A DNA stretch of 63,524 bases, taken from contig CACZAM010000009.1 in the NCBI GenBank assembly GCA_902779185.1, positions 1-63,524 on the forward strand. Direction: 5' to 3'. Within the stretch, counting starts at the first letter, position 1; the number at the start of each line of letters is the position of its first letter. The position numbers were made by a program, and so were the translations under genes. Below are positions 8,821 through 51,667 of this stretch, piece by piece. The stretch comes from an uncultured Eubacteriales bacterium (GTDB taxonomy: Bacteria; Bacillota; Clostridia; Peptostreptococcales; Anaerovoracaceae). The notes below the pieces were generated by a model. That model was not told the DNA's origin. It searched no databases and saw only the letters and a program-made list of their open reading frames with translations.

Positions 8821-9993
8821 CTACTGATAAGCAAATCCTTCTCCGGCGCTCTGGACAGGCTCGAATATGGACTGTGCCTGCTCGTCGGTCAGATCGATGC
8901 CGAATACTTCCTTGTAGTATGCCTTTGCCTCAGCGATGACATCTACGTCCTCGAACTTCTCAGGATATGCGGTCTTTGCCATCCATAGCAGTGTTACCGG
9001 GCAGTCGACTCCCGGAGTGTAGCTCCTGTACATGCCGAGAGGCATCTTGAAGACTCTCTTGTCCTGCACTGCCTTGACCGCGCTCCAGTCATATCCCTCG
9101 ACAGTATTGTTGTACAGATCGTCAGGATAGTATGCGTTGAAGTTGGTCATGAAGATCAGATCAGGGTTCCACGAATATACCTGCTCCATGTTGACTGCTA
9201 CGGAGTTGTCGGTCGAAAGCTCTGTCGCGACGTTCTTTGCGCCGATGGCATCAGCCCACCACTGACCGAAGAACTGCTGTCCCGAAGTCAGGAGTGTCGT
9301 GTCGCTGTACTGGAAGAGGAAGAACGCGTTTGCCCTTTCCTCGTCAGGGATATCCTTTACTCTTTCCTGAACCATATCATACATTGCATTGGATTTCTCC
9401 TCAACGATGGCAGCCTTGTCGCTGTCAGGGAACATCTGGCTCAGAAGCGCGATCCAGTTGTTGAGAGTTTCGATGCAGTTGTAGTCCCACTTGTTGACGG
9501 AAATAGCGACTGCCGCGAATCCTGCGTTCGCAAGCTGATCACCGAGTTCAGAGCTTGAAGCGCTGTAGAATACTACATCCGGCTCGAGCTTCGCGAGCTC
9601 CTCCATGTTGACATTCACATCCTCGATGTAGCCTGTCTCGGCGTTCAGGATCTCCGGATAGAGCTGTCCCAGAAGTCCGTTCTGCGCGGCCGTCATCGAC
9701 GGTGTCGGCATGCCTACGATCTTGTCGGCGGAGTCGAAGAATACAGCCAGCACGCTCGGGAGCGGATAGATGTCGCATACCGCGATCCTCTGGATGTCTG
9801 TCGGTACTTCGACCTGCCTGTCAGCGTGATCCGTGATCGTGATGGTATCCGCAGTCTCAGCAGTCTCTGCAGGTTCAGAAGCTTCTTCACCGCCGCCTCC
9901 GCATGACGCGAATGCCATCATGCTCATGGCAAGCACCATGACAAGCACAAACAGTTTTAACATTTTGTTCTTCTTACTCAGAATACTCTTCAT
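8821..9993 (-). CDS. Iron-chelate/cobalamin-type ABC transporter substrate-binding lipoprotein
   Basis: 390-residue solute-binding protein of the FecB/BtuF/FhuD type. The N-terminus has a lipoprotein signal ending MMAFASCGGGG. The mature protein starts with the usual strand TITITDHADRQVEVP and has the lobe motif MEELAKLEPDVVFYS. It is the last gene of the block that carries the matching FecCD permease and ATPase, and sits 20 bases after a nitrogenase-component-1-like gene with an AAAGGAGG ribosome site. Family members bind siderophores, haem, cobalamin or other metal chelates. The ligand here is not known; being in one unit with a nitrogenase-like reductase suggests that the imported ligand is the reductase substrate or cofactor source. 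Confidence 0.85.
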   Translation of the reverse strand: MKSILSKKNKMLKLFVLVMVLAMSMMAFASCGGGGEEASEPAETAETADTITITDHADRQVEVPTDIQRIAVCDIYPLPSVLAVFFDSADKIVGMPTPSMTAAQNGLLGQLYPEILNAETGYIEDVNVNMEELAKLEPDVVFYSASSSELGDQLANAGFAAVAISVNKWDYNCIETLNNWIALLSQMFPDSDKAAIVEEKSNAMYDMVQERVKDIPDEERANAFFLFQYSDTTLLTSGQQFFGQWWADAIGAKNVATELSTDNSVAVNMEQVYSWNPDLIFMTNFNAYYPDDLYNNTVEGYDWSAVKAVQDKRVFKMPLGMYRSYTPGVDCPVTLLWMAKTAYPEKFEDVDVIAEAKAYYKEVFGIDLTDEQAQSIFEPVQSAGEGFAYQ

Positions 9994-10013
9994 AATCAGA
10001 AACCTCCTTTGAT

Positions 10014-11312
10014 TTATTTGATCTTAATTAATAGCTCATTTATATCCCCGACCAGGTCAGGTATCTCATCCCTGTAGATGCGGCCCGAGAAGGCCTCACT
10101 CGGGAGAGATATGAACTTTGCGCTCTCCGGAACGATAGGCTTGTAGAGCGGATCGGCGATCACGAAAGCCGCGCCTTCGAGTTCAGGGATTATGTCGTCT
10201 TCATCAGGTGTCATGCGGTCGCACTCCCTCAGGATGCCTTCAGGGCACTCAGTTGCGCAGAGCACCTTTGCCGGGATCCCGCACTCAAGCTCTATGGTGC
10301 TTGCCAGCGACAGCGAAGTGATCCCCTCGCCGATCACGGCAGCGAAACCCTTTTCATAAGTGCTTTCGTCCCTGCCGGAGCTTCCGTCCAGGAACACTCC
10401 CGAGTCCACGCTTATCTCCGCCGACTCAAAAGTCTTTCCGAAGGATACGTCCTCAGCCTGCTCCCTGTATTTCTTCACATTGATGATGATCTGATCCGCC
10501 AGCAGAACCGGCAGCTCATTTCCCACCGGGAACCCGATCGCGTACGGCATTCCGAATCTCTCGTACAGCACCTTTGCCGCGCCGTATCCGGCTGCCGAAA
10601 CCACCAGGTTCACATCCGCCTCGGCCGAGCGCCTTATCTCGTCGAGGCTGCTTCCCATCGCCCACTTCGACACCACCTCGAAGCCTTCTCTTTCGAGCCA
10701 CTGAACGATGGAATCATCCGTTCCGTTGACAGAGAAATCGAGCGGGGTAAGTCCGAGAACATTGACCTTGATGCCGTTCGGCTTCATGCAGCAGCTGTCC
10801 ACTATCGAAGCGATTTTGCGCGCGGACATCTGCAGGGTGCTTCCGTCGCCTTTTTTATCCGCGGGATCATCTACGAAACGCTCCGCGATGCCTGCAAGCG
10901 CCATCGATGCCCCATGGATGTATGTGTTCATCCCGGTCGTCGGGAAGCCGAAGCTCGGTATGCCTGTTCTGTTCTCTATCACCGCGGCGACAGCTTCGAA
11001 GTCGAATCCCGTCATGGTCGGTATCGGCGTACCCGCGATCGCGATGAAAGCCGGCTTCAGAACGGCTGCCGCGTCGACTATATCGCTTATGAGCTTCTCA
11101 TCGTCGCCCATTATCGCTTCCATCTCGCTGATGCCGGAGATATAGACCATGCTGTCCATGTCGTACCAGCGCGGTTCGTCGTGGGTCGTGTACGTCGAGT
11201 TGCAGCCCGAAGCATCATGCATGATGGTCATGCCGCCAAGTTCAAACAACGCCGAGCACACGCCCATGACATCCGCTGAGTATGTAGAAATTATCCTTGC
11301 TGTCTGTTTCAT
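10014..11312 (-). CDS. Nitrogenase component 1-like oxidoreductase (second subunit)
   Basis: 432-residue protein of the NifD/NifK/BchN/CfbD superfamily. The N-terminal pattern GVCSALFELGGMTIMHDASGC gives two Cys, placed like the P-cluster or [4Fe-4S] ligands of NifK (C near the start, then ..H(G/D)..GC). The third region reads AGTPIPTMTGFDFEAV, with Thr where NifDK have Cys in a C-P-x-G-x-I-G-D type motif. The ATG at 11312 is chosen because it overlaps the preceding stop (ATGA) with a GAGGTG site before it; an in-frame GTG at 11321 is possible. It likely pairs with the next-door paralogue and takes electrons from the NifH-like protein. Substrate unknown. Confidence 0.8.
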   Translation of the reverse strand: MKQTARIISTYSADVMGVCSALFELGGMTIMHDASGCNSTYTTHDEPRWYDMDSMVYISGISEMEAIMGDDEKLISDIVDAAAVLKPAFIAIAGTPIPTMTGFDFEAVAAVIENRTGIPSFGFPTTGMNTYIHGASMALAGIAERFVDDPADKKGDGSTLQMSARKIASIVDSCCMKPNGIKVNVLGLTPLDFSVNGTDDSIVQWLEREGFEVVSKWAMGSSLDEIRRSAEADVNLVVSAAGYGAAKVLYERFGMPYAIGFPVGNELPVLLADQIIINVKKYREQAEDVSFGKTFESAEISVDSGVFLDGSSGRDESTYEKGFAAVIGEGITSLSLASTIELECGIPAKVLCATECPEGILRECDRMTPDEDDIIPELEGAAFVIADPLYKPIVPESAKFISLPSEAFSGRIYRDEIPDLVGDINELLIKIK

Positions 11313-12679
11313 CGTATGCACACCTCACAGCCCAGGCCTTTCACCTGCACAAGCTCGCGCATCTCCTTCTTTTCGAGGAATGCCTCGCGCATCATCCTGC
11401 ATGTTCTGGTAATAGCTTCGTAACCTGTCATCCCGCCGCCTTCAACAACGTTGATGAAGTGATCCGTCTCGTCGAAAGCAGCCGCTTTCTGCCCGATGGC
11501 AAGGATCTTCACTCCGTTCTGCGCTTCCGCGTTCGCGGTGCGCGCGAACCTCATTCCCGGATGGACCGTCGGGTAGATCATCAGGTCCGGATGCTCCTTC
11601 TGCAGGCTGTCGAAAGCAGCCCTGTCACCGCCCGGTATCCCGTCAGCATACACCTTTGTGACATTGATGCCGTGGCTGAGCAGCAGCCTGGCCAGCCCGA
11701 GCGGTCTCGGGCAGAATGTATAGTCGATGCTCACCGGAGTATCTCCGATAAGCTTTTTAGTCTCTTCCAGCTCCCTTTCGCACTCTTCCCTCAGCGCTGC
11801 GATCTCGTCGCTGCTCCTCGGTTCTATTCCAAGCACTCCGGCAAGTCCCGCGAAGGTTTCGTCTATCTCATCGTAGTCAAAGCTGAACTTCAGCACGTAG
11901 TGGATCCCGCCGAGCCTTTCCGAGAGCATGTCGCCGCCCGGCGCCGCATCCGGATTGTACGAAACGTATACACGGCTCTCCGCCATTTGCTGGTATTCTT
12001 CGTAGGTTTTGCACGATGTTATCTCGTGCACCTTAAGACCCGCGCCATTCAGGATCTTCACCAGATCGCTGTCCTCATCGGTCGGCAGATCGTTTCCGAT
12101 TATCGCGACGGCTTCAGGATCGATTTCCCTCTCATGCAGGAGCATGTAGAGGCGCGACCTCATGAGCTGGTCAGGGGTCAGGCCGCTCTTGCGCATGATA
12201 GGGTTCATGTAGCAGTCGGTAAAATCGATGTCGGGGAAGCGGCTCCTCAGAGTCGCGTATATCATGTCGAGATCGACTCCCGTGAAGTGATGCACGCAGC
12301 TCGTGTAGACGAGGACTGCAGGCGGACGCTTCGGGAGCTTGTTGATGATGTCCGTAACGCCCTCTATCACCAGGTCTTCCATGTCGCCGTCGAGGAGGTT
12401 GTTTTCCCTGACCGCGACCGTGGAGAATCTGTCGATCGTTCCCATCTCGGCGGCAGTCAGCACGACTCCGCGCAGGCAGCCCGCGGCGCACACGAATATT
12501 TCGTGTGCCTCCGGGATGAGCATCCCGGTGTGGACTATGTTCCACGTGCCGCGGGCCGGAGATGAATACTCCAGCCCCGACCTGAACGGCGCCGGGAAGT
12601 TCGCGTCCGCGATCCTCACATGAGGTATCTCATCCGCGCTCAGCCTTGTATTCTGTTTTTCGTTTACTTTTTTCAGCAT
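11309..12679 (-). CDS. Nitrogenase component 1-like oxidoreductase (first subunit)
   Basis: 456-residue relative of NifD/NifK. Cys candidates for an inter-subunit cluster are seen in [12 protein letters not shown] (near residues 64-68) and [13 protein letters not shown] (near 130), which is the NifD order. A His in the C-terminal part ([19 protein letters not shown]) falls near the place of the cofactor His of NifD, but that alignment is only by eye. The C-terminus ends in a second Cys pair (GLGCEVCIR). Its ATG overlaps the NifH-like stop by seven bases, so translation is coupled. No NifE, NifN or NifB homologue is present, arguing against an FeMo-type nitrogenase. Confidence 0.8.
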
Positions 12680-13443
12680 AGTCTCATTCCTGAATTGCAG
12701 ATCTCAAGGAGTTTTTTCGCGAGTGTGCGGTATTCGCCGGCCATCTCGCTGTCTGGGAATGCCTCGATGACTGTCTTTCCTAGATCTTCCGCATCAGTGA
12801 CCGTTTCGCTGCGACTCAGCTCGCCGATCACTTCCGAATTTATGTCCGAGGCGAGCTCCGCGACCTTCGCGTCCTCATCGCGGACGTTCCTGCGGTTGAG
12901 GATTATTCCGCCAAGCGTCGCATATCCTCTGTCCTTGAAGCCGTCGAGAGCTACCGCTATGTTCGCGGCGGCGTGGATGGCCATGTTCTCACCTGAGGTG
13001 ATCACGAATACCTTGTCAGCATAGCCGCCGCGCATCGGCATCGAGAATCCTCCGCAGACAACATCGCCCAGTACGTCATAAATGACGACATCTGGCTTGA
13101 AAGTCTCATAGGCTCCCTTTTCCTTCAGTTTGTCGAGAGCTGCGATTATGCCGCGCCCCGCGCATCCGAGTCCCGGAGTAGGGCCGCCGGCTTCCACGCA
13201 GATGACTCCGCCGTAGCCTTCCTTTACCATGTCAGAGAGTTCAAAGGCGTTCTTGCGTTCTCTCACAAGATCGAGCACCGTTGTCATGTCGCCATGCCCG
13301 TGCAGGCTCGAGGTCGAATCCGCCTTAGGGTCGCAGCCTATCTGCATTACCTTATAGCCCATATCCGCGAGCGCGGCCGACACGTTCGACACCGTGGTCG
13401 ACTTGCCTATTCCGCCTTTTCCGTAAACCGCAATTTTGATCAT
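12673..13443 (-). CDS. NifH/BchL-like Fe protein (ATP-dependent electron donor)
   Basis: 256-residue homodimeric ATPase expected to carry one [4Fe-4S] cluster and feed electrons to the component-1-like proteins next door. Walker A (GKGGIGKST) lies at residues 8-16 and the switch-I type motif GCDPKADST at 36-44. Both cluster ligands are conserved: Cys94 in GLGCAGRG and Cys130 in [10 protein letters not shown]. The length is close to CfbC/BchL types and shorter than most NifH proteins. It is translationally coupled to the downstream component-1 gene. Function as a reductase is well supported; the reaction is not known. Confidence 0.92.
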
Positions 13444-13489
13444 TTTGCATTCCTTCCTTCATGCAGCCTGCGTGGCTGCAGGTATATTT

Positions 13490-14581
13490 CTATTCGTATG
13501 TCGTCTTTACGCTGATGTCCGGGATGAGACTCAGTCTGTGCGAAAGAGCTTCAATATCCGCTGCCGGTCCCTCGAGCATCACGGTGATAATGTATTTGTC
13601 GGATCTCCTGTGCGGCAGACCCATCCTGCCTATGAGGAGATGATTGTAATCCCTGAACGCGCTGTTTATGAGGGCGGCGTGATCGTTGTTCCGCATGATC
13701 ACAGTCACGGAGGCGAGTATCGTCTCATCCCTGACAGCCGGTCCCTCCGCGCTGTCTTCCGATATTCCGACTGCCACAACGTTCTTCATTATATTATGCG
13801 GTGTCTCCACCTCTCCTATGAGGGCTTCGACTCCGAACGCATGGCGGATGTTCTCCTCGGTCACAACGCCCGTTGTTTCTCCGAAGATGCTCTTTCCGTC
13901 CTTTGAAAGCATCAGTGCCTTTCCTGCGCGCTGGAGCGCGTGGGCCGGGTAATGCGTGTTGAATATGCACGCGACACCTTCTGCCGCCAGAGCGGTCATC
14001 GCGTCGAGCACTATGAGCTGGTTTTTGAAGTCGAGGTTGGACTCCGGCTCATCGAGCACCAGTATCTCAGGTTCGGCCGCCATCGCACGTGCTATGAGCA
14101 CCATCTGCAGCTCACCGCCGCTTATCGCGTAGCACGGCTTGTCGGCAAGATGCGATATCCCCAGCCTCTCCATCACGCTCTCCGCGACCTTCATGTCTTC
14201 AGCTGAAGGAGCAGAGAAAGCTCCTATGCGGCTGCTTCGTCCGAGGAGCACGGTCTGGAACGCCGTGTAGGATACCGCGGCTGATCTGGCCTGAGGCACG
14301 TATGCCATCCTGCGCCATAGTTTTGAAGCCGGTATGCTCCGTATGTCCTCGCCGTCCAGCAGGCTGCGGCCGCTCTGCCAGTGGAGCATGTCCATCATGC
14401 ACCTCAGAAGTGTCGTTTTGCCCGCACCGTTAGGACCCAGCACGGCGAGTATCTCGCCCGGATCAAGTTCTATATTGATGTCTTTGAGTATCTGCGGTCC
14501 GCTCTTATACGCAAAGCTGCCGTTTTCTATCCTGAGGAGGGCATCGCCGGAACGCGCATCGTTTCTTATCTGTCCGTTCAT
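13490..14581 (-). CDS. FecE/BtuD-type ABC ATPase fused to a TM1266-like regulatory domain
   Basis: 363 residues. Residues 1-255 are an importer ATPase: Walker A GPNGAGKTT, Q-loop in YVPQARS, signature ISGGELQ (Glu in place of the usual Gln), Walker B ILVLDEPESNLD. Residues about 285-363 are a second domain (ILASVTVIMRNNDHAALI, LLIGRMGLPHRRSDKYIIT) that matches the stand-alone 81-residue protein coded at 15799-16044. That family (TM1266, an iron-only hydrogenase system regulator) has an ACT/NikR-C-like fold. The ATG at 14581 overlaps the permease stop (ATGA). The fusion suggests transport activity is gated by a ligand or metal sensed by the added domain. Confidence 0.85.
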   Translation of the reverse strand: MNGQIRNDARSGDALLRIENGSFAYKSGPQILKDINIELDPGEILAVLGPNGAGKTTLLRCMMDMLHWQSGRSLLDGEDIRSIPASKLWRRMAYVPQARSAAVSYTAFQTVLLGRSSRIGAFSAPSAEDMKVAESVMERLGISHLADKPCYAISGGELQMVLIARAMAAEPEILVLDEPESNLDFKNQLIVLDAMTALAAEGVACIFNTHYPAHALQRAGKALMLSKDGKSIFGETTGVVTEENIRHAFGVEALIGEVETPHNIMKNVVAVGISEDSAEGPAVRDETILASVTVIMRNNDHAALINSAFRDYNHLLIGRMGLPHRRSDKYIITVMLEGPAADIEALSHRLSLIPDISVKTTYE

Positions 14582-15600
14582 ATGCGCCAGCCTCCGCTTC
14601 TTCTCATCAGAACTATAAAGAACGGCGCGCCTATCATGGCAGTCAGTATCGATACGGGTATCTCCGCCGCGGATATGCTGCGCGCCAGTGTGTCTACGAT
14701 TATCATGAAAACGGCTCCGAAGCTCACGGAAGCCGGTACTATCGAGAGATGGTTGTTTCCGAACAGCATGCGGCACATGTGAGGTATCAGAAGTCCCACC
14801 CATCCTACCTGTCCGCACATCGATACGCAGGATGCCGTGATGGCTGTCGCCGCCACAACGGTGACGCCCCTGAGCAGACGGAGGTTGACGCCCGACGCCT
14901 TCGCTTCATCATCGGAAAGAGGCAGCAGATTCATGCGCCATCTTATGAGCATGAAGAGCACAATGCCGGCAATTATCACCGGCGCGCCGAGCGAAAGCGT
15001 GCGGTAGTTGGCCTTGTCGAGCCCGCCCATCAGCCAGTATGTTATGGCCGGGAGCTGGGATTCGGCGTCAGCCGCGAACTTTACAAAGGATATGAGTGCG
15101 GAGAACAGCGATCCTATCATTATGCCGGAAAGCACGATGTAGCTGAGTCCTCCCTTGTCCTTGCCTGAGCCTGCAAGCCATGTGAGCGCTACAGCAAATC
15201 CGCCCATTGCGAGTCCCATCAGCTGTATGCCTATCAGGTTGAATCCGAGCAGTATGCCGAGGGCAGCGCCGAAAGCCGCGCCGCTTGCCACGCCCAGCGT
15301 GTCAGGTGTCGCGAGCGGATTCGCGAAAAGGCTCTGGAACGCGCATCCGGATACCGAAAGTCCGGCTCCTACAAGCACTGCAAGAATTATGCGCGGGAGT
15401 CTCAGCTGCATCACGGTCTTTTCTATCAGCTCGCTCGAAGCGTGCTTCCCCGACAGAGCGGCGCGGAGCACTTCAAAGACCTCACCCGGGGCGATCGACA
15501 TGCGTCCGATCCCCAGGGCGATGATGGCTGCGATAAACGGCAGCACAATAAGTATTACGATCCATGCGGCTCCAAGCCTTCCGTCTCTTCTGAGGCTCAT
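14578..15600 (-). CDS. FecCD/BtuC-type ABC transporter permease
   Basis: 340-residue integral membrane protein with about ten hydrophobic segments, the membrane part of the importer formed with the fused ATPase downstream and the binding lipoprotein of the same block. Family landmarks are seen: LRLPRIILAVLVGAGLSVSG, QSLFANPLATPDTLGVASGA and the C-terminal GQVGWVGLLIPHMCRML. The ATG at 15600 starts the normal N-terminus; its ribosome site is weak (AGGA about 14 bases upstream). The frame upstream reads through a hairpin and is not considered coding. Confidence 0.9.
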   Translation of the reverse strand: MSLRRDGRLGAAWIVILIVLPFIAAIIALGIGRMSIAPGEVFEVLRAALSGKHASSELIEKTVMQLRLPRIILAVLVGAGLSVSGCAFQSLFANPLATPDTLGVASGAAFGAALGILLGFNLIGIQLMGLAMGGFAVALTWLAGSGKDKGGLSYIVLSGIMIGSLFSALISFVKFAADAESQLPAITYWLMGGLDKANYRTLSLGAPVIIAGIVLFMLIRWRMNLLPLSDDEAKASGVNLRLLRGVTVVAATAITASCVSMCGQVGWVGLLIPHMCRMLFGNNHLSIVPASVSFGAVFMIIVDTLARSISAAEIPVSILTAMIGAPFFIVLMRRSGGWRI

Positions 15601-15655
15601 CTGCTTGCTTTGTTTCCTTTTTTGATTGTTTTTTACGGTGACTCCTGCCCAATAA

Positions 15656-15689
15656 CCAAAACAGCCCCGCTCCGTGTGAAGCAAGGCTG
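15656..15689 (-). terminator. Possible terminator or attenuator before the permease gene
   Basis: On the minus strand CAGCC-TTGCT...AGCGG-GGCTG forms a hairpin followed by TTTT. It lies in the 198-base gap between the TM1266-like gene and the permease, so it could limit transcription into the importer and reductase genes. No known riboswitch core was recognised around it. Confidence 0.45.
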
Positions 15690-15798
15690 CATAGATACAA
15701 ATATCAGTACGCGAAAAAGCGTCCTTTCAAATGATCAGCGTCGCATCTTGCTTCGGCCTCAAACCCTCTTCATGGGATTTCGGCTTCAGGAGGATGTT

Positions 15799-16044
15799 TC
15801 AGACTTTGGCATAGGTCACCTTGGCATTGATACCGTCAAGACGCCCGAGCGCTCCGGTGAGTGAGTTGATCCTATCCATCGGTGCGTCAATGGCTATGCT
15901 GATTATGCTGATCCCCTTTTCCTTATACGGGATCCCCATGCGTCCGATAATATAAGCGGAATACTCATGGAGCAGATCATTCAGCATCTCCACCCGGTCG
16001 GACTGCGTGACGATAATGCTTATCACGGCGACTCTGGTTTCCAT
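15799..16044 (-). CDS. TM1266-family small regulator (ACT/NikR-C-like)
   Basis: 81-residue protein METRVAVISIIV... with the family core AYIIGRMGIPYKEKGIS and a final beta strand NAKVTYAKV. The family is known as a putative regulator of iron-only hydrogenase systems and folds like ACT or nickel-responsive NikR C-terminal domains. The ATPase gene at 13490-14581 carries a homologous domain at its C-terminus, so the two may form mixed oligomers. An AGGAGAT ribosome site precedes the ATG. Ligand unknown. Confidence 0.8.
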   Translation of the reverse strand: METRVAVISIIVTQSDRVEMLNDLLHEYSAYIIGRMGIPYKEKGISIISIAIDAPMDRINSLTGALGRLDGINAKVTYAKV

Positions 16045-16088
16045 TGTTGATCTCCTGTTTTCAGTTGTAAAGTGATTCTAACACATAC

Positions 16089-17327
16089 TTATTCCTGCGG
16101 CAATCTTCTGTGATCCTCCACTTTGTTTATGGTGAGGAACACAACGACAGCTCCGGCAGCTGTCACCAGCGCCGCCACAAAGGTAAGGACCTTTGCTCCG
16201 GATGCGTCGAGTATCCAGCCTCCCGCAAGGCTTGCGATGATAGCTGAGAAAGTAAACATCATCGTGAAGAGAGACTGTCCCTTGACCGCTTCTCCAGGGC
16301 TCATTATCTCATTTACGTAATAGACCATGGCAGGCATAAGGAGCGCGAACGCTGCTACCTGGAATGCCTGCGCAGCAAACAGCAGTTTTACCGAACCGGC
16401 AAGCCAGCATACCACGATCTTCCCGGTGAAACCGAGCGAAGACAGCTTTATGAGAGTCCGGCTTGAGAAGTGCCTGTGTATCCTGCCGAAAAAGACCATC
16501 GTCGGTATTTCGAGAAAAGCCATAAGGGAAAGGACCCTGCCGGCCTGCTCGGTAGTGCCTCCTGCTCCTGCTGCTATCTGCGGCATGTAGTTGCTGATGA
16601 TGGCGTTGCTGAAGAGCAGCCCTGATAGCCCCAGATTCATTATGAAGAAGTATTTATTGCGTCTGATGAATGCCTTAAGGTCTATCCTTTCATCATCCGA
16701 ATCTGTTTCATCTGGTGTTTTTCCGTTGTGCTCAGCGATCTCAATATCGTTTGCCCTCTTCATTTTTTTGAAACTGTATCTTGTGATGAAGAGCATCACT
16801 ATGAGCAGCGCGCATGCCGCCTCCATGCATACCGGGACCGACATTTCACCCTTCTTCTCTATGAGTGTGCCGAGCACAGCCACTATGATGGAATATCCCA
16901 GAGAGCCGCCTGCCCGGCCTATCCCGTAGTTTACATCCGCGCCGCTTTCGCTGAGCCTGAAGGCAAGTGAATTTAGCAGAGGCTGTATCAGAGAGTGTAT
17001 CGCCAGAACGGCCGCAATAGCCGCTGCCAGCAGGAATGATCCGTTGCCGAAAAAAAAGTAACCCGCGCCGGTCAGCATTATGAGAAGTATCATCCATACC
17101 ATAGCGTCGATTATCTTTATCCCCTTTGCCCTGTCCATATGGTCGGCAACAAAAGGCTGCAGACCCAGCGCCAGCAGATTCGCGGCAGCGAACATTATGC
17201 CGATATGCATGTTGTTATAGCCTTTTGCGAGCATAAAAACCGAGGCAAAACTGCCTGTGATACCATAGATCATCCAGAATGCCCCGTGTGTTAATGTGTA
17301 TTCAGTATTAAGCTTTAAAGAATTCAA
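16089..17327 (-). CDS. Major facilitator superfamily transporter (LacY/nucleoside symporter-like)
   Basis: 412-residue polytopic membrane protein with about 12 hydrophobic segments. A central charged loop lies near residues 190-215 (KKMKRANDIEIAEHNGKTPDE). The motif GYNNMHIGIMFAAANLLAL and the repeated layout fit the oligosaccharide/proton symporter group. The frame begins with TTG at 17327, which lies 22 bases after the flavoprotein stop; the first ATG is 18 codons in, within the first membrane helix, so the TTG start is preferred although its ribosome site is weak. It sits between the flavoprotein and the TM1266 gene and may export or import a product of the reductase system. Confidence 0.75.
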   Translation of the reverse strand: MNSLKLNTEYTLTHGAFWMIYGITGSFASVFMLAKGYNNMHIGIMFAAANLLALGLQPFVADHMDRAKGIKIIDAMVWMILLIMLTGAGYFFFGNGSFLLAAAIAAVLAIHSLIQPLLNSLAFRLSESGADVNYGIGRAGGSLGYSIIVAVLGTLIEKKGEMSVPVCMEAACALLIVMLFITRYSFKKMKRANDIEIAEHNGKTPDETDSDDERIDLKAFIRRNKYFFIMNLGLSGLLFSNAIISNYMPQIAAGAGGTTEQAGRVLSLMAFLEIPTMVFFGRIHRHFSSRTLIKLSSLGFTGKIVVCWLAGSVKLLFAAQAFQVAAFALLMPAMVYYVNEIMSPGEAVKGQSLFTMMFTFSAIIASLAGGWILDASGAKVLTFVAALVTAAGAVVVFLTINKVEDHRRLPQE

Positions 17328-17349
17328 ATCTATTTCAGTCTCCAGTCTG

Positions 17350-18210
17350 TCAGAACTCCTTTTCGATCTCGTTCAGGCGCTCGAGTATAGCATGAGCCGC
17401 GATGTTTCCTTCACCGACCGCCTTCGCTATCTGATACGGCCTGCCGGTGCAGTCGCCCGCAGCGTAGCAGCCTTTAAAATTTGTCTCCTGGCTGCGGCCC
17501 ACCTTTATGTGAGCGCCATCCATCTCAAGACCCGGAAGCACCGTTGACGGCGCGATGGCAGGCCTCAGAATGAAGATGCCGTCCACGTCTATCTTAGTGC
17601 CGTCTGTAAGTTCAATAGAATCGCACTTCATACCGCCATCAAGCTTCTTTACAGGCAGTTTGAGCACTTCAGCATTTTCAGCATCTGTTCTGTAACCGAA
17701 GCTGGTGTAGATATACAGCTTGCCGCAGATCTCTTCGAGATACTTTATATCGTGCTCCATGCGTTCATCCGTGCAATAAACAGCTGCTGTCTTTCCTTTG
17801 TACAGGAATCCGTCGCATGTAGCGCAGTAGCTCACGCCCGCGCCGAGAAGTCTTGCCTCGTTCTCCATTCCCCTGGCAGCAGCTATGCCGGTTGAGAGCA
17901 GCACAGTGCGCGCTTCAAACATCTCGTTGTCCGCGAGTATCATGAAGCTGCCGCCCATGTCCGCTATATTGGTCACGCGCTTGTCTGCAGGCTCGAGCCC
18001 AAGCTCCTCAGCCTGCTCGCGGAACTTCTTATTCAGATCGGCACCCGAAACCATGGCTACGCCCGGATAGTTAGCTATCTTCTCGGACTTGCCTACTTTG
18101 TCGCTCAGCTCATTTGAGCCGAACCAGATGATCTCCTTGTTGTGGAGCTTCAGCGTGAGTGCTGCGGAAAGACCCGCAGGACCAGTCCCTATAATTGCAA
18201 CATCGTACAT
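17350..18210 (-). CDS. Thioredoxin reductase-like NAD(P)H flavoprotein
   Basis: 286-residue pyridine nucleotide-disulfide oxidoreductase. The FAD motif GTGPAGLSAALTL is at the N-terminus, the redox-active CxxC is seen in SYCATCDGFLYKG near residue 135, and a C-terminal FAD motif reads GCYAAGDCTGRPYQIAKAVGEG. The NAD(P) part lacks an obvious GGGxxA and instead reads GKTAAVYCTDERMEHD, so the nucleotide preference is unclear. No thioredoxin gene is nearby. Being directly upstream of the transporter and nitrogenase-like genes, it may supply electrons to that system rather than to thioredoxin. Confidence 0.82.
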   Translation of the reverse strand: MYDVAIIGTGPAGLSAALTLKLHNKEIIWFGSNELSDKVGKSEKIANYPGVAMVSGADLNKKFREQAEELGLEPADKRVTNIADMGGSFMILADNEMFEARTVLLSTGIAAARGMENEARLLGAGVSYCATCDGFLYKGKTAAVYCTDERMEHDIKYLEEICGKLYIYTSFGYRTDAENAEVLKLPVKKLDGGMKCDSIELTDGTKIDVDGIFILRPAIAPSTVLPGLEMDGAHIKVGRSQETNFKGCYAAGDCTGRPYQIAKAVGEGNIAAHAILERLNEIEKEF

Positions 18211-18227
18211 AGTTGACCCTCTTTCTT

Positions 18228-18398
18228 AATAATAGATAAAAGCCTCTAAAGTATCCGAGCGAGAGGCCAATTTGAAGCCGGTTACGAGGGGAGCGCGAGC
18301 GGTTTGCCCGCGAAGCGCGAGCCCGAAACCGTTGCGTCGCAAATTTTGAGCCGGGAGGCGTACTCGAGCGAGGAACTTTTGAGGCTTTAGTTATTATA
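18228..18398. repeat. Large palindromic intergenic element
   Basis: Imperfect inverted repeats of about 24 bases bound this 170-base gap (left arm 18228-18252, right arm 18375-18398; shared core AAAGCCTC.AAAGT). Inside is a GC-rich hairpin (CGGTTT...GAAACCG enclosing CCGCG.AGCGCG) and two related direct segments beginning CAA(A)TTT(T)GA. The right arm overlaps the hypB stop codon. The whole can fold into one long stem with a branched head. It looks like a REP/MITE-type repeat or a structured RNA; copies elsewhere in the genome would decide. Confidence 0.55.
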
Positions 18399-19071
18399 AA
18401 GCCTTCGATAATTCTACCTGGCGGCGGAGCCAGCTGAGCCACGCGTCGAAGCCTTCGCCTGTCTTTGCCGATACGAAGAAGATCTCAGACAGCGGATTCA
18501 ACGCGTGCACTCTCTCAACGAATGCTTCATCATCAAACGCGAAAAATTTGCGTGTATCTGTCTTGTTTACAAGGACTGCCTGTGTGACCGTGAACATAAG
18601 CGGGTACTTGAGCGGTTTGTCGTCACCCTCCGGGACCGACAGTATCTCAATATTGATGTTCGCGCCCGTATCCTGCTCGGCTGTGCAGACCAGATTGCCC
18701 ACGTTCTCCAGGAATACGATGTCGAGATCCTTCGTGTCGAACTCGTTGATCGCAGCCTGTGTCATCGCAGCGTCCATGCAGCACTCTCCGCCTGTATGTA
18801 TCTGCATCGAGCGTACGCCCGCCTCTGCCATCTTCTCGGCATCGACTGTCGCCTCGATATCCGCCTCCATAACGCCTATTTTATACTCACCGCCAAGTTC
18901 CTCTATGGTGCGCAGGAGTGTAGTTGTTTTGCCTGCTCCCGGTGAAGCCATCACATTTACCATGAACGTGCCGTTCTGCTTGTTCTGCGCTCTCACCTCT
19001 GCGGCGATACGGTCATTTTCTTCGAAAATGCCTACATTTACATCTATTACTCTGACATTGTTTTCTGACAT
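18394..19071 (-). CDS. hypB: HypB-like nickel GTPase, copy with altered metal motif
   Basis: 225-residue SIMIBI-class GTPase of the HypB family, which delivers nickel to [NiFe]-hydrogenase or urease-type enzymes. P-loop SPGAGKTT is near residue 44 and base-specificity NKTD near 177. The GTPase metal site normally reads C-H; here it reads TGGECCMDAAM, so the His is replaced by Cys. The N-terminal His-rich or CxxCGC nickel-storage stretch is absent. It follows a second hypB by 15 bases. No hydrogenase, hypA or other hyp gene is in the window, so the client is unknown; the nitrogenase-like block downstream is a candidate. Confidence 0.88.
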   Translation of the reverse strand: MSENNVRVIDVNVGIFEENDRIAAEVRAQNKQNGTFMVNVMASPGAGKTTTLLRTIEELGGEYKIGVMEADIEATVDAEKMAEAGVRSMQIHTGGECCMDAAMTQAAINEFDTKDLDIVFLENVGNLVCTAEQDTGANINIEILSVPEGDDKPLKYPLMFTVTQAVLVNKTDTRKFFAFDDEAFVERVHALNPLSEIFFVSAKTGEGFDAWLSWLRRQVELSKAL

Positions 19072-19086
19072 ATCTGCTTCCTCATC

Positions 19087-19764
19087 CTAATCAACGTATT
19101 CCAGTATTTCCTTGACGCGCTCCCCTACCCATTCGGAAAGCGCGATGATACCTTCACCTGTCGCTGCCGACACCATGAACACCGGTGCTTCCGGAGCGCA
19201 CTCAGCCACAAGCTGCTTGAATTTCTCCGGGCTGAAATCGAATGCCTCCATGGCATCGATCTTGTTGACTACCACCACGTCTGCCTTTGTGAACATCAGA
19301 GGATACTTGAGCGGTTTGTCGTCGCCTTCAGGTACCGACAGGATCACGAGGTTGATCTGAGCTCCTGTGTCGAACTCAGCCGGGCATACCAGATTGCCTA
19401 CATTCTCAAGAATGACTACGTCAAGATCCTTCGAACCGATCTCGCGCAGAGCCTGACGGCTCATATCAGCATCAAGATGGCACATGCCGCCCGTGTGGAG
19501 CTGCACCGAAGGGATCCCGGCATCAAGCATCGTTCTTGTGTCAACGTCGCCGTCGATGTCCGCCTCGAGCACTCCGACCCTGCAGAGCAGTCTGAGCTGC
19601 TCCACGAGCCTGAGTATCGTTGATGTCTTGCCGGATCCCGGCGAGCTCATAACATTGACGTATACCGTTTTCTCCTCTGCCAGCTCTTCACGCAGCCTGT
19701 CCGCATCTGCGTCATTGTCCGCAAGGATGCTTTCCTTAAGATCTATGATCCTTACTTCTTCCAT
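19087..19764 (-). CDS. hypB: HypB-like nickel GTPase, canonical copy
   Basis: 225-residue paralogue of the next gene and first gene of the colinear run. P-loop SPGSGKTS, the metal motif in its usual form (TGGMCHLDADM), and the shared segment VGNLVCPAEFDTGAQIN are all present; the guanine motif is NKID. Length equals that of the second copy, so the pair arose by tandem duplication. HypB normally works with HypA to insert nickel; neither HypA nor a nickel enzyme is seen here. An alternative role is metal delivery to the enzyme or chelate handled by the nitrogenase-like genes. Confidence 0.9.
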   Translation of the reverse strand: MEEVRIIDLKESILADNDADADRLREELAEEKTVYVNVMSSPGSGKTSTILRLVEQLRLLCRVGVLEADIDGDVDTRTMLDAGIPSVQLHTGGMCHLDADMSRQALREIGSKDLDVVILENVGNLVCPAEFDTGAQINLVILSVPEGDDKPLKYPLMFTKADVVVVNKIDAMEAFDFSPEKFKQLVAECAPEAPVFMVSAATGEGIIALSEWVGERVKEILEYVD

Positions 19765-25531: not shown

Positions 25532-28500
25532 CTATTTCACTTTGATCTTTACAGTTACTTTTTTTGTCACCGATTTATATCGTGAGTTGCCCGCGGCTTT
25601 AACTTTCACTTTCAGCTTGTAAGTACCCTTCTTAAGTTTCTTCTTAACAGTGATCTTTCCTGTCTTTTTGTTTACGCTGATCTTCTTGTTGCCGCTTGCC
25701 TTGACATAAGTCACGGTTCCCTTTGCACCGCTGATGCTTATAGCTTTGGAGCGTTTGACCGTCTGTGTCTTCTTTTTAAGTTGCTTATATTTTACAGTTA
25801 CGGTCTTTGCTTTCACCTTCAGCGTGTTGGCTGCCTTTGTATTGTAACTTGTTTTGTATGCTCCGCTCGATGCCGGAAGCATGCAAATGGTATTGAAGCT
25901 TTGGGATACTTCGTCCGACCCCCGTTCATAGAAATATATCCCTTCCTTTGTCTCCACAGCAGAAGAATTAGTCAAATTGTCAGACAGGGAGTCATCTACT
26001 GTATAGTACATAGGCTTACATTTATCTGTCTTCGTGTTGTAAAGGAATATATTGCCCGCTCCGTCCGCTGAAACATTCATCATCACGAAGCCATCCCTGA
26101 CTGCCGCCGCCGCACCCGTGATCATTGTTATATCCGAAGTGGACATCCTTCCGACAAACGGAATATCCGCGTGTCTTGTCCACACTGATCCGTCGTAGCT
26201 GAGCACTTTGACAGAAGCCTTATTGTCGGCACCGCTTCCGAACATGAGCCACACCTTTCCGTCCTTCACGCAGGCAAATGCGTTCTGCAGCGGTGAATCA
26301 GCGTACTTCTTTCCTTTTGACCATTTACCGGTCTTTATGTCATAAGCATAAACAGGGATGTCGGCGAGTCCTTCCGACGACCCGAATATCAATATCTTTC
26401 CTTTAAAGACCGCATAAGCGGAACTTTCAGCGTTGAGTCCGTATTTTTTCTCAAAATCCCTGATCTCCCTGAAGCTCCATGCAGGATCCTTTGCGGTAAA
26501 GTTTATGGAAGCAAGCCAGTGTTTTATCTCGGAGTCTTCATCCGCAGCTTCACTTGACGGTGTATAAGCGGCATCCACAAAGGCATACAGGGTTTCATCC
26601 CCATACAGAGGATAACGCGGAGCTTTCACACTTACTTTAAGATCGTTATCTACCTGATATCTATCGAAATTGCCGCCATTTTTGTCATGCTCATTTTTGA
26701 TATAGTAATCGGCAAGAGCATCTTTTATATCCGTTCCGGCGAAATCGGTAAACTGGTTTCCGTCAAATGACGCAACTGTTCCGCTGCGCGGATCATAGGC
26801 ATAGAGCTTTGATCCCTTTGAGTCAGTCAGAAGAGTACGCTCTTTAAAGTGCCACGATGACACAAATTCCCTGACAGGGTCTTTCTCTGTCATTACTTTT
26901 TTAAGTTTTTTCTGCCCTCTTACGGTAAAGAATGACGAGCGGGCTTTTACTGAGTCATCCGCACCGCGCAGGATAAACTCCGTATACGTTCCGAAAAGCG
27001 GTTTTGCGTTGCTTATTGTGATCGAACTGCCATCCTTGGCAAAACTTATGCGGTCTGACGAGATCGTGGTCTCCTTTGATTTCTTTTGAGCCAGCCTGAT
27101 GAAGCTGAGCTTAAGGTCAGGCGTGAAGTGTATTCCGCTGAGCGTAAGGGTCCCCTTTTCCGTATTGCAAACGGCATCGGTGATCGAAGGATCAGCAGTA
27201 TCCGTAGGTTCGGCAGCAGAAGCACTGCCGACTTTGCTCAGATCGAGCCATCCGCCTGTCTGACAGAGGTCCCTTAAGTCATCGTCCTCTGTAACAGAGG
27301 AGAGGAATCTTGCGCGGTTTTCCATCGCGTATTCGGCTCCCGACTGACCTTCCTTCTGTGGATTCAGAGCAGCCATCACCGCATAGGCTCCTGCCGCGAC
27401 CGGACATGCCATTGACGTGCCCGACATCACAGTATATGAACTTTCCGCAGGGAATTGTTTTTGCGGATCATCGAAAGGCAGCGACACCCCGAGAGAGTCA
27501 ATATAAACGGTAATATCTGCAGGTCCCTCCGGAGGCGGAAGAGCATCATCAGTCCAGTACGGATAACCTGCTGTGATTTTGAGACCCATTCCTACTTCTT
27601 TTCCGGAATCATCGCCCTGAGGCTTTACTTCATCCCAGCTGAGGAGCTCCTTGCCACTTGATTTTGAACTGTTCTGGCACTGCAGGACCTCATCATCAGT
27701 ATTGGCTTCACTGGTCAGACTTTCCCCTCCGTATCCGGTCATCTCATAGCTGCCATCTTCGTTCTTCGAGATCTCGCCACCCTCAATATTGCCGTAGGCA
27801 TCACCTTCTTCATAATTGAGTATTGTATTGATCGCAAATTTGGTATTGTCTCCGCCGGTCGTGCCTTCGTTCTTCTCATAAGGGAAAAAGAAGAAATACT
27901 CCTCGCCCTGCACAGCACCCTTAATCGTGAGTTTCAGCGAAGCCTTTCCTGTAGTAGTGAAATACTTATCTGTAGCGATCTCGAGTTCCGGAGCCGCATC
28001 CGAGATATCTCCTCCTGCATCCTGCCCGTCGTCTGAGTTCTGCTTTTGCTTGACAAAAACGGATGCACCGAAAGCATTGACTCCTTCCCCGGCCGTGTCA
28101 GGAATTACCGAATCATATGTGCCGGCAGACGCATCGCCTTCCGTTATTTTGATATTACTGTTGAACTGGCCGTAATAATCCGTATTCTGAGCTCTTTCCT
28201 CTGCCGTATATAAATTCGGATTATACATGCTTTCGCACGCCGCCGAAAGCAGATTGGTTCCCGGAGCAAACAGTTCTACCGTGCTCTTACCGTAGTTGGA
28301 GAATCCGGCCGGTTTTCCGTCGGGCTTTGCCGCTCCTACGCTTATCTGATACTTGTTATAGCTCCCCGAGCCATAATATGACACCTTATCCAGATCCTCG
28401 TGCTCATTGCCTGCAGCAAAGAAAGTGATCACTCCTTCTTCGCCAAGGCGCTCAACTATTCCATCATAGATATCGCCTCTGCCCGGGTTGCACCAGGAAT

Positions 28501-29527
28501 TGCTGATCGCCACCACGTTGACTCCGCGCTGCTTGGCCTTGAGGGCATAATTGAAGCCGCCGAGCTCAACATATGACGCACGGTCTGCATCACCGCCGCT
28601 GTGCACTGTGCTCTTTGAGAGCATCATCACCTTTACATTGACACCGGATGCTACACCGGCAACGCCTTTGCCGTTATTTGCCTCAGCAGCTATCAGGCCG
28701 GCGCAATGCGAACCGTGACCTTCACCGTCCGTGATGTCCGCCGCGTTATCTGCGAAGTTGAAACCGTGCTCTCCTTCAAGACCGATATTCCCCGGATTTG
28801 TCCAGAGCATATTTCTGAGATCCTCATGATCAGTATTGACTCCGGAATCTATTACAGCAACTACCACCTCATCGTTTTTGGCAGGCTTATACTTTGCCCA
28901 TGCGCTTCCGGCATTGGTCGAGATAGTTTCACTGGCCGCATATCCACGCGTACTGACATCATCACCCGATTTGTTATCAGCCTGAGGTGAATTGGTTTGA
29001 TAGCAGTAACTGTTCAGAGCGTCGTTCAGAGAGTAGTCATAACTCTGCTTTTCTGCATATGTATTGGCCTCTGCTGACTCCACCCTGTCGTTAGCGGAAA
29101 GCTTCTGTATCATGGTTTCGGTATCATATTTGTCCGAGGCAACAAGAGCTACCGTAAAATCGTCATCAAAGGAAATGCTGTCCTTTATGACAAAATCGTC
29201 GCCCAGACTCTCCCTGATTATTTCAACCTCTGACTTCGCATTCTTTGCCGCCTCTGTTTCCTCGCCTGTTGCCTCCATTGACATGCCGAAGTCATCATCG
29301 ATATTATCAAGCTTCTTTGCTTTGCGGAGGCTTAGCTTACTGTCCTTTACCGCTCCGGTCCGGAACATGACCATTACCTCTCCCGGCACATATGTGCCTT
29401 CTTCAGGCAGCACATAACCGTCGCTGGCAGGAGAACTCTCAGCTGCAGCATAGCCGCCGGGAACCACAGGTGCCATGGCTATTATCATTAAAATGCTTAT
29501 CAATGTTGTTATAAGTCGTTTTAACAT
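25532..29527 (-). CDS. Secreted subtilisin-like (S8) serine peptidase with Lys-rich C-terminal module
   Basis: 1331-residue exported protease. A signal peptide (MLKRLITTLISILMIIAMAP) is followed by a prodomain-like segment. The catalytic triad is readable: Asp in VVAVIDSGVNTDHEDL (about 226), His in GEGHGSHCAGLIA (about 272) and Ser in VMSGTSMACPVAAGAYA (about 704). The unusually long His-Ser gap holds an inserted, probably beta-rich domain. The C-terminal third has kelch-like segments and a final basic module (GAKGTVTYVKASGNKKISVN, then KKLKKGTYKLKVKVKAAGN) shared with two other secreted proteins of the window. It lies 11 bases after the C1A peptidase gene, so the two form an operon. It likely digests host or dietary protein. 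Confidence 0.92.
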   Translation of the reverse strand: MLKRLITTLISILMIIAMAPVVPGGYAAAESSPASDGYVLPEEGTYVPGEVMVMFRTGAVKDSKLSLRKAKKLDNIDDDFGMSMEATGEETEAAKNAKSEVEIIRESLGDDFVIKDSISFDDDFTVALVASDKYDTETMIQKLSANDRVESAEANTYAEKQSYDYSLNDALNSYCYQTNSPQADNKSGDDVSTRGYAASETISTNAGSAWAKYKPAKNDEVVVAVIDSGVNTDHEDLRNMLWTNPGNIGLEGEHGFNFADNAADITDGEGHGSHCAGLIAAEANNGKGVAGVASGVNVKVMMLSKSTVHSGGDADRASYVELGGFNYALKAKQRGVNVVAISNSWCNPGRGDIYDGIVERLGEEGVITFFAAGNEHEDLDKVSYYGSGSYNKYQISVGAAKPDGKPAGFSNYGKSTVELFAPGTNLLSAACESMYNPNLYTAEERAQNTDYYGQFNSNIKITEGDASAGTYDSVIPDTAGEGVNAFGASVFVKQKQNSDDGQDAGGDISDAAPELEIATDKYFTTTGKASLKLTIKGAVQGEEYFFFFPYEKNEGTTGGDNTKFAINTILNYEEGDAYGNIEGGEISKNEDGSYEMTGYGGESLTSEANTDDEVLQCQNSSKSSGKELLSWDEVKPQGDDSGKEVGMGLKITAGYPYWTDDALPPPEGPADITVYIDSLGVSLPFDDPQKQFPAESSYTVMSGTSMACPVAAGAYAVMAALNPQKEGQSGAEYAMENRARFLSSVTEDDDLRDLCQTGGWLDLSKVGSASAAEPTDTADPSITDAVCNTEKGTLTLSGIHFTPDLKLSFIRLAQKKSKETTISSDRISFAKDGSSITISNAKPLFGTYTEFILRGADDSVKARSSFFTVRGQKKLKKVMTEKDPVREFVSSWHFKERTLLTDSKGSKLYAYDPRSGTVASFDGNQFTDFAGTDIKDALADYYIKNEHDKNGGNFDRYQVDNDLKVSVKAPRYPLYGDETLYAFVDAAYTPSSEAADEDSEIKHWLASINFTAKDPAWSFREIRDFEKKYGLNAESSAYAVFKGKILIFGSSEGLADIPVYAYDIKTGKWSKGKKYADSPLQNAFACVKDGKVWLMFGSGADNKASVKVLSYDGSVWTRHADIPFVGRMSTSDITMITGAAAAVRDGFVMMNVSADGAGNIFLYNTKTDKCKPMYYTVDDSLSDNLTNSSAVETKEGIYFYERGSDEVSQSFNTICMLPASSGAYKTSYNTKAANTLKVKAKTVTVKYKQLKKKTQTVKRSKAISISGAKGTVTYVKASGNKKISVNKKTGKITVKKKLKKGTYKLKVKVKAAGNSRYKSVTKKVTVKIKVK

Positions 29528-29537
29528 TGCCGTCCTC

Positions 29538-51487: not shown

Positions 51488-51667
51488 ATTATCCTTTAAT
51501 ACTTCCTTTTGTTCCATATCAGCACCTTTCAGTCAGTAGTATCCTCTTTCAGTGCATTGATTTCCCCCATTCTCATACCGCTGCAAGCGGTAATTAATTG
51601 TATCATAAAACAGCGAGAATACACCTGGCCATGGAACTTCCAAAGTATTCATTTCAGTGAAAATCTC

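Follow-up and report, generated by a model that had tools for sequence, protein, structure and literature searches.

A nitrogenase-like operon with a predicted role in [FeFe]-hydrogenase maturation in bacteria mostly lacking HydG

What is the task of a nitrogenase-like reductase whose genes share an operon with a FecBCD-type importer? The operon that raises this question lies at positions 8821..19764 of a 63,524-nucleotide stretch of DNA from an uncultured Eubacteriales bacterium (GenBank assembly GCA_902779185.1, contig CACZAM010000009.1), the whole of which is called the window below, and codes for a NifH-like Fe protein (H), two component-1-like proteins (D1 and D2), the importer (binding protein, permease and ATPase) and a TM1266 family protein, among others. 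The CO and CN ligands of [FeFe]-hydrogenases are attributed to HydG, and industrial acetogens (e.g. Clostridium ljungdahlii) and many gut-type bacteria have [FeFe]-hydrogenases without a recognisable HydG, a gap that a concrete gene set could fill. Judged from sequence, the operon probably acts in [FeFe]-hydrogenase maturation in place of HydG; this estimate takes together a favoured reading, in which a precursor of the active site is imported, and a rival, in which the reductase makes the ligands.

Gene families were assigned with Pfam and NCBIfam profiles at their curated cut-offs (312 bits on the NCBIfam profile for a HydG call). H-D1-D2 as found in the window is called set A, a second nitrogenase-like set found with HypF, HypC, HypD and HypE is set B, and importer-H-D1-D2 operons without hyd genes form set C. 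Loci with the importer are type I, and those that lack it and have set B with HypF, HypC, HypD and HypE are type II. A D1 profile recovered 367 stretches from the GTDB collection, the best 80 of which (L110-L189; neighbourhoods of at most 10 kb on each side) are the named loci, and 50 of these, picked by contig extent, species names and variety, are the named carriers used in genome-level tests. The window's genus was sampled with 47 genomes (37 with set A, 10 without) and the phylum with 398, in which set A was called above 400 bits to give 11 carriers, the window's own genome included. Many of these genomes are drafts, so single absences mean little and the argument rests on the pattern.

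The operon is more than a chance assembly: D1 relatives are widespread, occurring in 43 of 99 sampled related genomes and in the 367 GTDB stretches, with the gene order mostly kept. The core that recurs in relatives comprises TM1266, the FecCD permease, the ATPase with its TM1266 tail, H, D1, D2 and the substrate-binding protein (SBP), and is distributed over Bacillota, Synergistota and Lentisphaerota; hosts of the named loci include Clostridium, Lachnospiraceae, Oscillospiraceae, Erysipelotrichia, Megamonas and Loigolactobacillus among the Bacillota, along with Synergistaceae and Lentisphaeria/Victivallales. HydE lies at most 9 kb from D1 in 47 of the 80 named loci; when HydF and TM1266 are counted as well, 57 of 80 have one or more of the three within that distance (28 of 37 where at least 6 kb is available on both sides). 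The radical S-adenosylmethionine (SAM) gene beside H in many named loci is HydE: the two members that were scanned score 525 and 568 bits against a cut-off of 254.6. A recurrent neighbour of about 404 amino acids, whose cluster spans 31 loci, is HydF, its one scanned member scoring 561 bits (cut-off 325.6). Neither gene stands in the window's own operon. Of 38 importer ATPases from named loci, 24 are fused to a TM1266-like domain; the ATPases from five related set C operons have a length of only 262-283 amino acids. Loigolactobacillus rennini has an [FeFe]-hydrogenase gene some 2 kb upstream of its TM1266-permease-ATPase-HydE-H genes, from which two small genes separate it. The H-cluster ligand motifs TSC(C/S)P, MPCxxK and ExMxC are present in all 14 hydrogenases inspected, the first as TSCSP in 12 and as TSCCP in 2. 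The hydrogenases with TSCSP are those of L102-L109, L200-L202 and L281, and those with TSCCP belong to L. rennini (L280) and to the HydG-bearing genus genome G030 (L277).

Of the 50 named carriers, 49 have an [FeFe]-hydrogenase domain and 45 lack HydG over cut-off; in the genus, 45 of 47 genomes have the hydrogenase domain. Where the locus stands beside HydE, HydF or TM1266, none of 38 named carriers has HydG, versus 5 of the remaining 12. Across the genus, HydE exceeds its cut-off in 38 genomes and HydG in two (G030 and G037), both of which are among the 10 without set A, leaving none among the 37 with it (Fisher 0.04). HydG was likewise found in none of the 11 set A carriers of the phylum sample versus 225 of 387 others (Fisher 8.7e-5), and three families there (f44, f49 and f69) hold set A genomes without HydG and relatives with it. 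Some of the listed HydG matches in this sample score about 580-700 bits, not 850-940 (lower ones were not listed), so some may be diverged enzymes. In most carriers the HydG profile returned only HydE-like and ThiH-like scores, with one 68-bit match in C. ljungdahlii.

The importer itself is exchangeable. Among the 80 named loci, 50 have the importer only, 23 have set B or hyp genes only, 7 have neither (5 of them on contigs that end near D1) and none has both, so that the coupling of a nitrogenase-like reductase to a FecBCD-type importer stated in the original prediction recurs in the neighbourhood survey that it called for. A genome-level table of 90 rows was built from 49 named carriers (L113 was dropped for its short contig), 29 other genus genomes, G070, 10 phylum-sample genomes and the window; genus carriers outside it are G006 and G034 (very short contigs) and G011, G021, G025, G033 and G042. 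It holds 53 rows with the importer only (window included), 34 with set B only, 2 with both and 1 (L156) with neither (Fisher 3e-21), where G001 was scored importer-less from a 5.2-kb contig, and G039 was scored for set B on HypF-D-E, set B itself not being seen there. By parsimony on the D1 tree the importer switches 13 times. Of 9 independent pairs, set B moves against the importer in an average of 7.4 and with it in none (median p 0.016). G005 shows the exchange most cleanly: its D1 is 89% identical to that of the window and its flanking neighbours are kept; the permease, ATPase and lipoprotein are missing there, and set B with hypFCDE is present on another contig.

HypC was read in 33 of 39 loci (unread in L138, L139, L142, L148, L154 and L184, where the called gap between HypF and HypD is 16-25 bases), and the C-terminal end of HypE is PRIC in 37 of 38, the exception (L186) lying at the end of the fetched stretch. 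In [NiFe]-hydrogenase maturation the PRIC end of HypE is described as bearing the thiocyanate from which cyanide moves (PMC12130793), HypF and HypE turning carbamoyl phosphate into cyanide and HypCD serving as scaffold for Fe(CN)2CO (PMC12130793; PMC12134894). HypD is found in 11 of 47 genus genomes and lies beside set B genes in 10 of them, the eleventh being G039, whose contig stops at HypF. A [NiFe]-hydrogenase large subunit was found in 0 of the 47 genus genomes (the named genomes were not searched), so the Hyp proteins there must have another client, and [NiFe] maturation as the role of the operon is rejected for the genus.

Residues of the reductase suggest how it may work. C64, C68, C128 and C156 of D1 (57 members) and C40 of D2 (36 members) are invariant in set A alignments, in keeping with the component-1 cysteine pattern first noted in the window, and Cys94 and Cys130 of the Fe protein, noted there too, are both in place. 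D1 aligns with NifE/D and D2 with NifN/K in hhalign, D1 C128 matching the cluster cysteine of NifE/NifD and D2 C40 that of NifN in the profile alignment, which places no cysteine of D1 at the position of NifD Cys275. Cys275 is the M-cluster (cofactor) ligand of NifD. From these matches and the missing Cys275 equivalent we infer that a [4Fe-4S] cluster serves as a relay and that the substrate cavity is open.

Should the importer be functionally equivalent to set B with hypFCDE, it is simplest to suppose that it imports an iron-CN/CO precursor and that set A, present in both types, processes this precursor for HydE. The product of HydG is reported to be a mononuclear Fe(cys)(CN)(CO)2 synthon that is handed to HydE, and a synthetic analogue of this synthon binds to HydE and reacts there (PMC12752695). 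A small complex, if supplied, could thus stand in for HydG. In type I cells, an iron precursor carrying CN and/or CO ligands would enter through the FecBCD-type importer, and in type II cells set B would make the same precursor internally together with HypF, HypC, HypD and HypE. H would deliver electrons with ATP to D1-D2 by way of a [4Fe-4S] cluster held by C64/C68 and C128 of D1 and C40 of D2; D1-D2 would reduce or rearrange the iron-CN/CO precursor into a form for HydE; and HydE and HydF would complete the diiron site. The TM1266 domains may sense the maturation product and gate import; the TM1266 tail of the ATPase suggests such feedback on import, and ligand-sensing tails are known on other importers. 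On balance we lean towards this full statement, in which the core operon is a HydG-independent branch of H-cluster assembly with precursor import, and offer only tentatively the further possibility that the precursor is traded between bacteria.

Several points weigh against this explanation. We know of no iron-CN/CO compound used as a nutrient. HydG is present in five named carriers (C. drakei, C. thailandense, two Intestinibacter bartlettii and one Synergistaceae), all of them without hyd genes beside the locus, and named carrier G130 shows no [FeFe]-hydrogenase domain. Within the genus, G002 and G038 (79 and 76% complete) lack HydG and set A alike but have an [FeFe]-hydrogenase and HydE; G010, G012, G027 and G046 have an [FeFe]-hydrogenase with none of HydE over cut-off, HydG or set A; some phylum-sample genomes also show HydE-like scores in the absence of both HydG and set A. 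G026 and G039 (listed contamination 5 and 2%) have the importer together with hyp genes, and set C operons occur without hyd genes, also in HydG genomes (G362 and G482). HydE of the window's genome sits on another contig (L272:2579-7100; contig C15 of G000), where it adjoins two 2-hydroxyglutaryl-CoA dehydratase D-component-like genes (PF06050); in L273 and L274, too, open reading frames (ORFs) of 533 amino acids adjoin HydE. The hypCDEF genes of the C. ljungdahlii group could have as their client the [NiFe]-hydrogenase reported there, and the same paper offers motif-based HydG candidates, one of them in C. autoethanogenum (PMC9431212).

Of the other explanations, the one that fares best, although we consider it unlikely, is that set A makes the diatomic ligands, H-D1-D2 reducing CO2, cyanate, thiocyanate or a similar compound to CO and/or cyanide for the H-cluster, with the importer bringing iron or a small substrate and HypFCDE adding cyanide in type II. 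The absence of HydG and the linkage to hyd genes speak for it equally, and CO2, cyanate and thiocyanate are known nitrogenase substrates that yield CO or HCN. The source of CO for HypCD under anaerobic conditions is, moreover, described as unresolved (PMC12134894). Against ligand making, D1 lacks an equivalent of the NifD cofactor ligand Cys275, and set A is retained when the importer swaps for the cyanide-making HypFCDE, which suggests that set A is not the source of cyanide.

It is more doubtful still that the operon feeds iron or reductant to H-cluster assembly, with CO and CN coming from an enzyme that has escaped recognition, for instance a diverged radical SAM protein, and the absence of HydG coinciding with set A by chance. 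FecBCD-type importers usually carry iron chelates, and the genus genomes that have a hydrogenase without HydG and set A fit this reading. Radical SAM proteins of about 450 amino acids have been proposed as HydG candidates in acetogens (PMC9431212), yet the HydG profile recovers nothing beyond the HydE-like, ThiH-like and 68-bit matches given above in most carriers and in C. ljungdahlii, and the exchange of importer and HypFCDE is left unexplained. Very unlikely, finally, is reduction of an imported tetrapyrrole or other metal chelate (the substrates named in the original prediction) for a non-hydrogenase purpose, with hyd genes as neighbours by co-regulation only, and a tetrapyrrole is not supported as the leading substrate: the importer and reductase are indeed kept together, even in set C operons that lack hyd genes, a CbiL-like gene occurs in one set C locus and the five HydG-bearing carriers show no hyd linkage, but relatives place the operon by HydE, HydF and TM1266 in mostly HydG-free genomes, and the 57 hyd-linked loci, the 24 ATPase-TM1266 fusions and the exchange with HypFCDE all stand against it.

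Eleven ORFs, not the ten genes first counted, make up the operon in the window, all on the minus strand by the ORF list and profile scans; every family originally assigned to them was recovered by Pfam and NCBIfam. The first four in transcription order are local extras: HypB1 (19087..19764; TIGR00073 223 bits, cut-off 121), HypB2 (18394..19071; TIGR00073 221 bits, same cut-off), a thioredoxin-reductase-like (TrxR-like) FAD flavoprotein with one CxxC (17350..18210; PF07992; TIGR01292 164 bits, under the cut-off of 343) and a major facilitator superfamily (MFS) transporter (16089..17327; PF07690 and PF12832). These are followed by the TM1266 family protein (15799..16044; TIGR03959 108.5 bits, cut-off 60.8), the FecCD/BtuC-type permease (14578..15600; PF01032 272.6 bits; likely ATG 15600, the longest ORF reaching 15684) and the importer ATPase with its C-terminal TM1266-like domain (13490..14581; PF00005 and PF21699 over cut-off). 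H (12673..13443; Fer4_NifH PF00142 293 bits), D1 on the D/E side (11309..12679; Oxidored_nitro PF00148 62.7 bits) and D2 on the K/N side (10014..11312; PF00148 90.8 bits) come next, and last is the FecB/BtuF-like binding lipoprotein, or SBP (8821..9993; Peripla_BP_2 PF01497 60.9 bits; lipobox-like start), whose gene adjoins D2 and is kept in type I loci. Overlaps of 4-7 bases had been noted and are found between H and D1 (7 bases), D1 and D2 (4 bases; D2 ATG 11312) and permease and ATPase (4 bases; ATPase ATG 14581). The binding protein, permease and ATPase each exceed their Pfam cut-offs (PF01497, PF01032 and PF00005), and no transporter equivalog is over cut-off among the NCBIfam matches listed for the importer (for the ATPase, the best 25 of 185). 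The GGxCH motif, the GTPase metal site of HypB, reads C-H in HypB1 and C-C in HypB2, a difference that occurs in the genus in which no [NiFe] large subunit was found. Elsewhere in the window, at 25532-32321 and 48728-51517, the large proteins are a subtilase-family protein of 1331 amino acids and two of about 928 amino acids with a lectin-like PF18560 domain.

Nickel handling by HypB as part of the core, also suggested by the original prediction, is not supported by the comparison. Only close relatives share the HypB, TrxR-like and MFS genes, and because these are labelled in none of the 80 named loci they were dropped from the core. Close relatives also carry in this operon a gene of 230 amino acids of the ATC-hydrolase family (L049:2478-3170, with PF14196; L050:2425-3117; L051:14316-15008), which the window is without. 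The substrate of this family is a cysteine-cyanide adduct; as a clue to cyanide handling the gene was set aside, being absent from the window and unlabelled in the 80 named loci. Natural fusions join H to D1 in Clostridiaceae BL-3 and an uncultured Clostridium (L164 and L166), and D1 to D2 in one branch of the genus (L037-L040).

Set C indicates that the design of importer plus reductase is wider than hydrogenase, since its importer-H-D1-D2 operons exist without hyd genes. Loci with no labelled HydE or TM1266 are L041, L047, L257, L258, L259, L262 and L263, and neighbours include a CbiL-like gene in L041 (TIGR01467, 190.7 bits, over cut-off), MoeA-like genes in L258 and L259 and TonB receptors in L263; some of these operons lie on plasmids, of Treponema saccharophilum and Sporomusa termitida.

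The bare association with hydrogenase maturation is already known. Dos Santos 2012 (PMC3464626) described NifHEN-like proteins beside hydrogenase maturation genes in Coprococcus catus and suggested in one sentence a role in assembling an active-site metallocluster. Di Leonardo et al. 2022 (PMC9431212) reported HydE and HydF without HydG in 5 of 8 acetogenic clostridia, and HypCDEF without HypA or HypB in five acetogenic clostridia with one [NiFe]-hydrogenase in each; its authors see no ready explanation for the missing HydG. The main text of a transposon study of C. autoethanogenum (PMC9004356) is silent on nitrogenase, NifH and HypF. No hydrogenase maturation route is known to rely on a nitrogenase-like enzyme or an importer. 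No proposal of a nitrogenase-like replacement for HydG, or of an import-or-make exchange, was found in the open-access literature (preprints were outside the search), and as far as that literature goes these two elements are new. They would tie nitrogenase-like enzymes to hydrogenase cofactor chemistry, open the question to deletion tests in a tractable acetogen, and may bear on the anaerobic source of CO in HypCD chemistry; if true, precursor import would bring salvage of an organometallic precursor into gut and rumen hydrogen metabolism.

Compared with known systems, the window's proteins stand outside the characterised groups, and membership in Nif, Bch and Cfb families is rejected on profile cut-offs for them as for members of sets B and C. 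H falls below the nifH equivalog cut-off (322 vs 394.35 bits), D2 reaches at best 52 of 505 bits (on nifE) among nifD, nifK, nifE and nifN, and for D1 no NCBIfam profile matches at E 0.001, in line with the nifE and nifN genes reported missing at the outset; no NifB is among the 11 ORFs, a genome-wide nifB search not having been made. A quick-method tree of Fe proteins (71 of 144 collected sequences, with two NifH, one BchL and no CfbC; BchL and MarH are long branches) puts set A in one clade (support 96), set B in another (99) and NifH with MarH in a third (99), and grouping of H with NifH or MarH is therefore rejected. CfbCD similarly pairs a NifH-like reductase with a component-1-like protein, and H scores 312 bits on CfbC, but this is under the cut-off of 402, the operon has two different component-1 genes, and D2 reaches 19.5 of 268 bits on methan_mark_13. 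Dark-operative protochlorophyllide oxidoreductase (BchLNB) and chlorophyllide oxidoreductase (BchXYZ) are, as set A would be, three-component ATP-driven reductases without an M-cluster, although H scores 194 of 345 bits on BchL and 165 of 331 on BchX, and D2 30 of 490 on BchB. The methylthio-alkane reductase MarHDK supplies the best PDB sequence match of H (MarH, 9fmg_D, 254 bits) and differs in that MarH falls outside set A and that D1 is without the Cys275 equivalent. The NifHEN-like proteins of Coprococcus catus also resemble set A, with two cysteines in the D/E-like subunit, one in the K/N-like subunit and two linked copies; the portion of that paper (PMC3464626) used here makes no mention of HydG absence, importer/hypFCDE exchange or mechanism, and gives co-location with an ATP-binding cassette transporter for other species. 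With HydE-HydF-HydG maturation, lastly, the operon shares the recurrent company of HydE, HydF and TM1266 and carriers that nearly all have an [FeFe]-hydrogenase; it differs in that HydG is mostly missing, and H-D1-D2 with the importer, or with set B and hypFCDE, is present instead.

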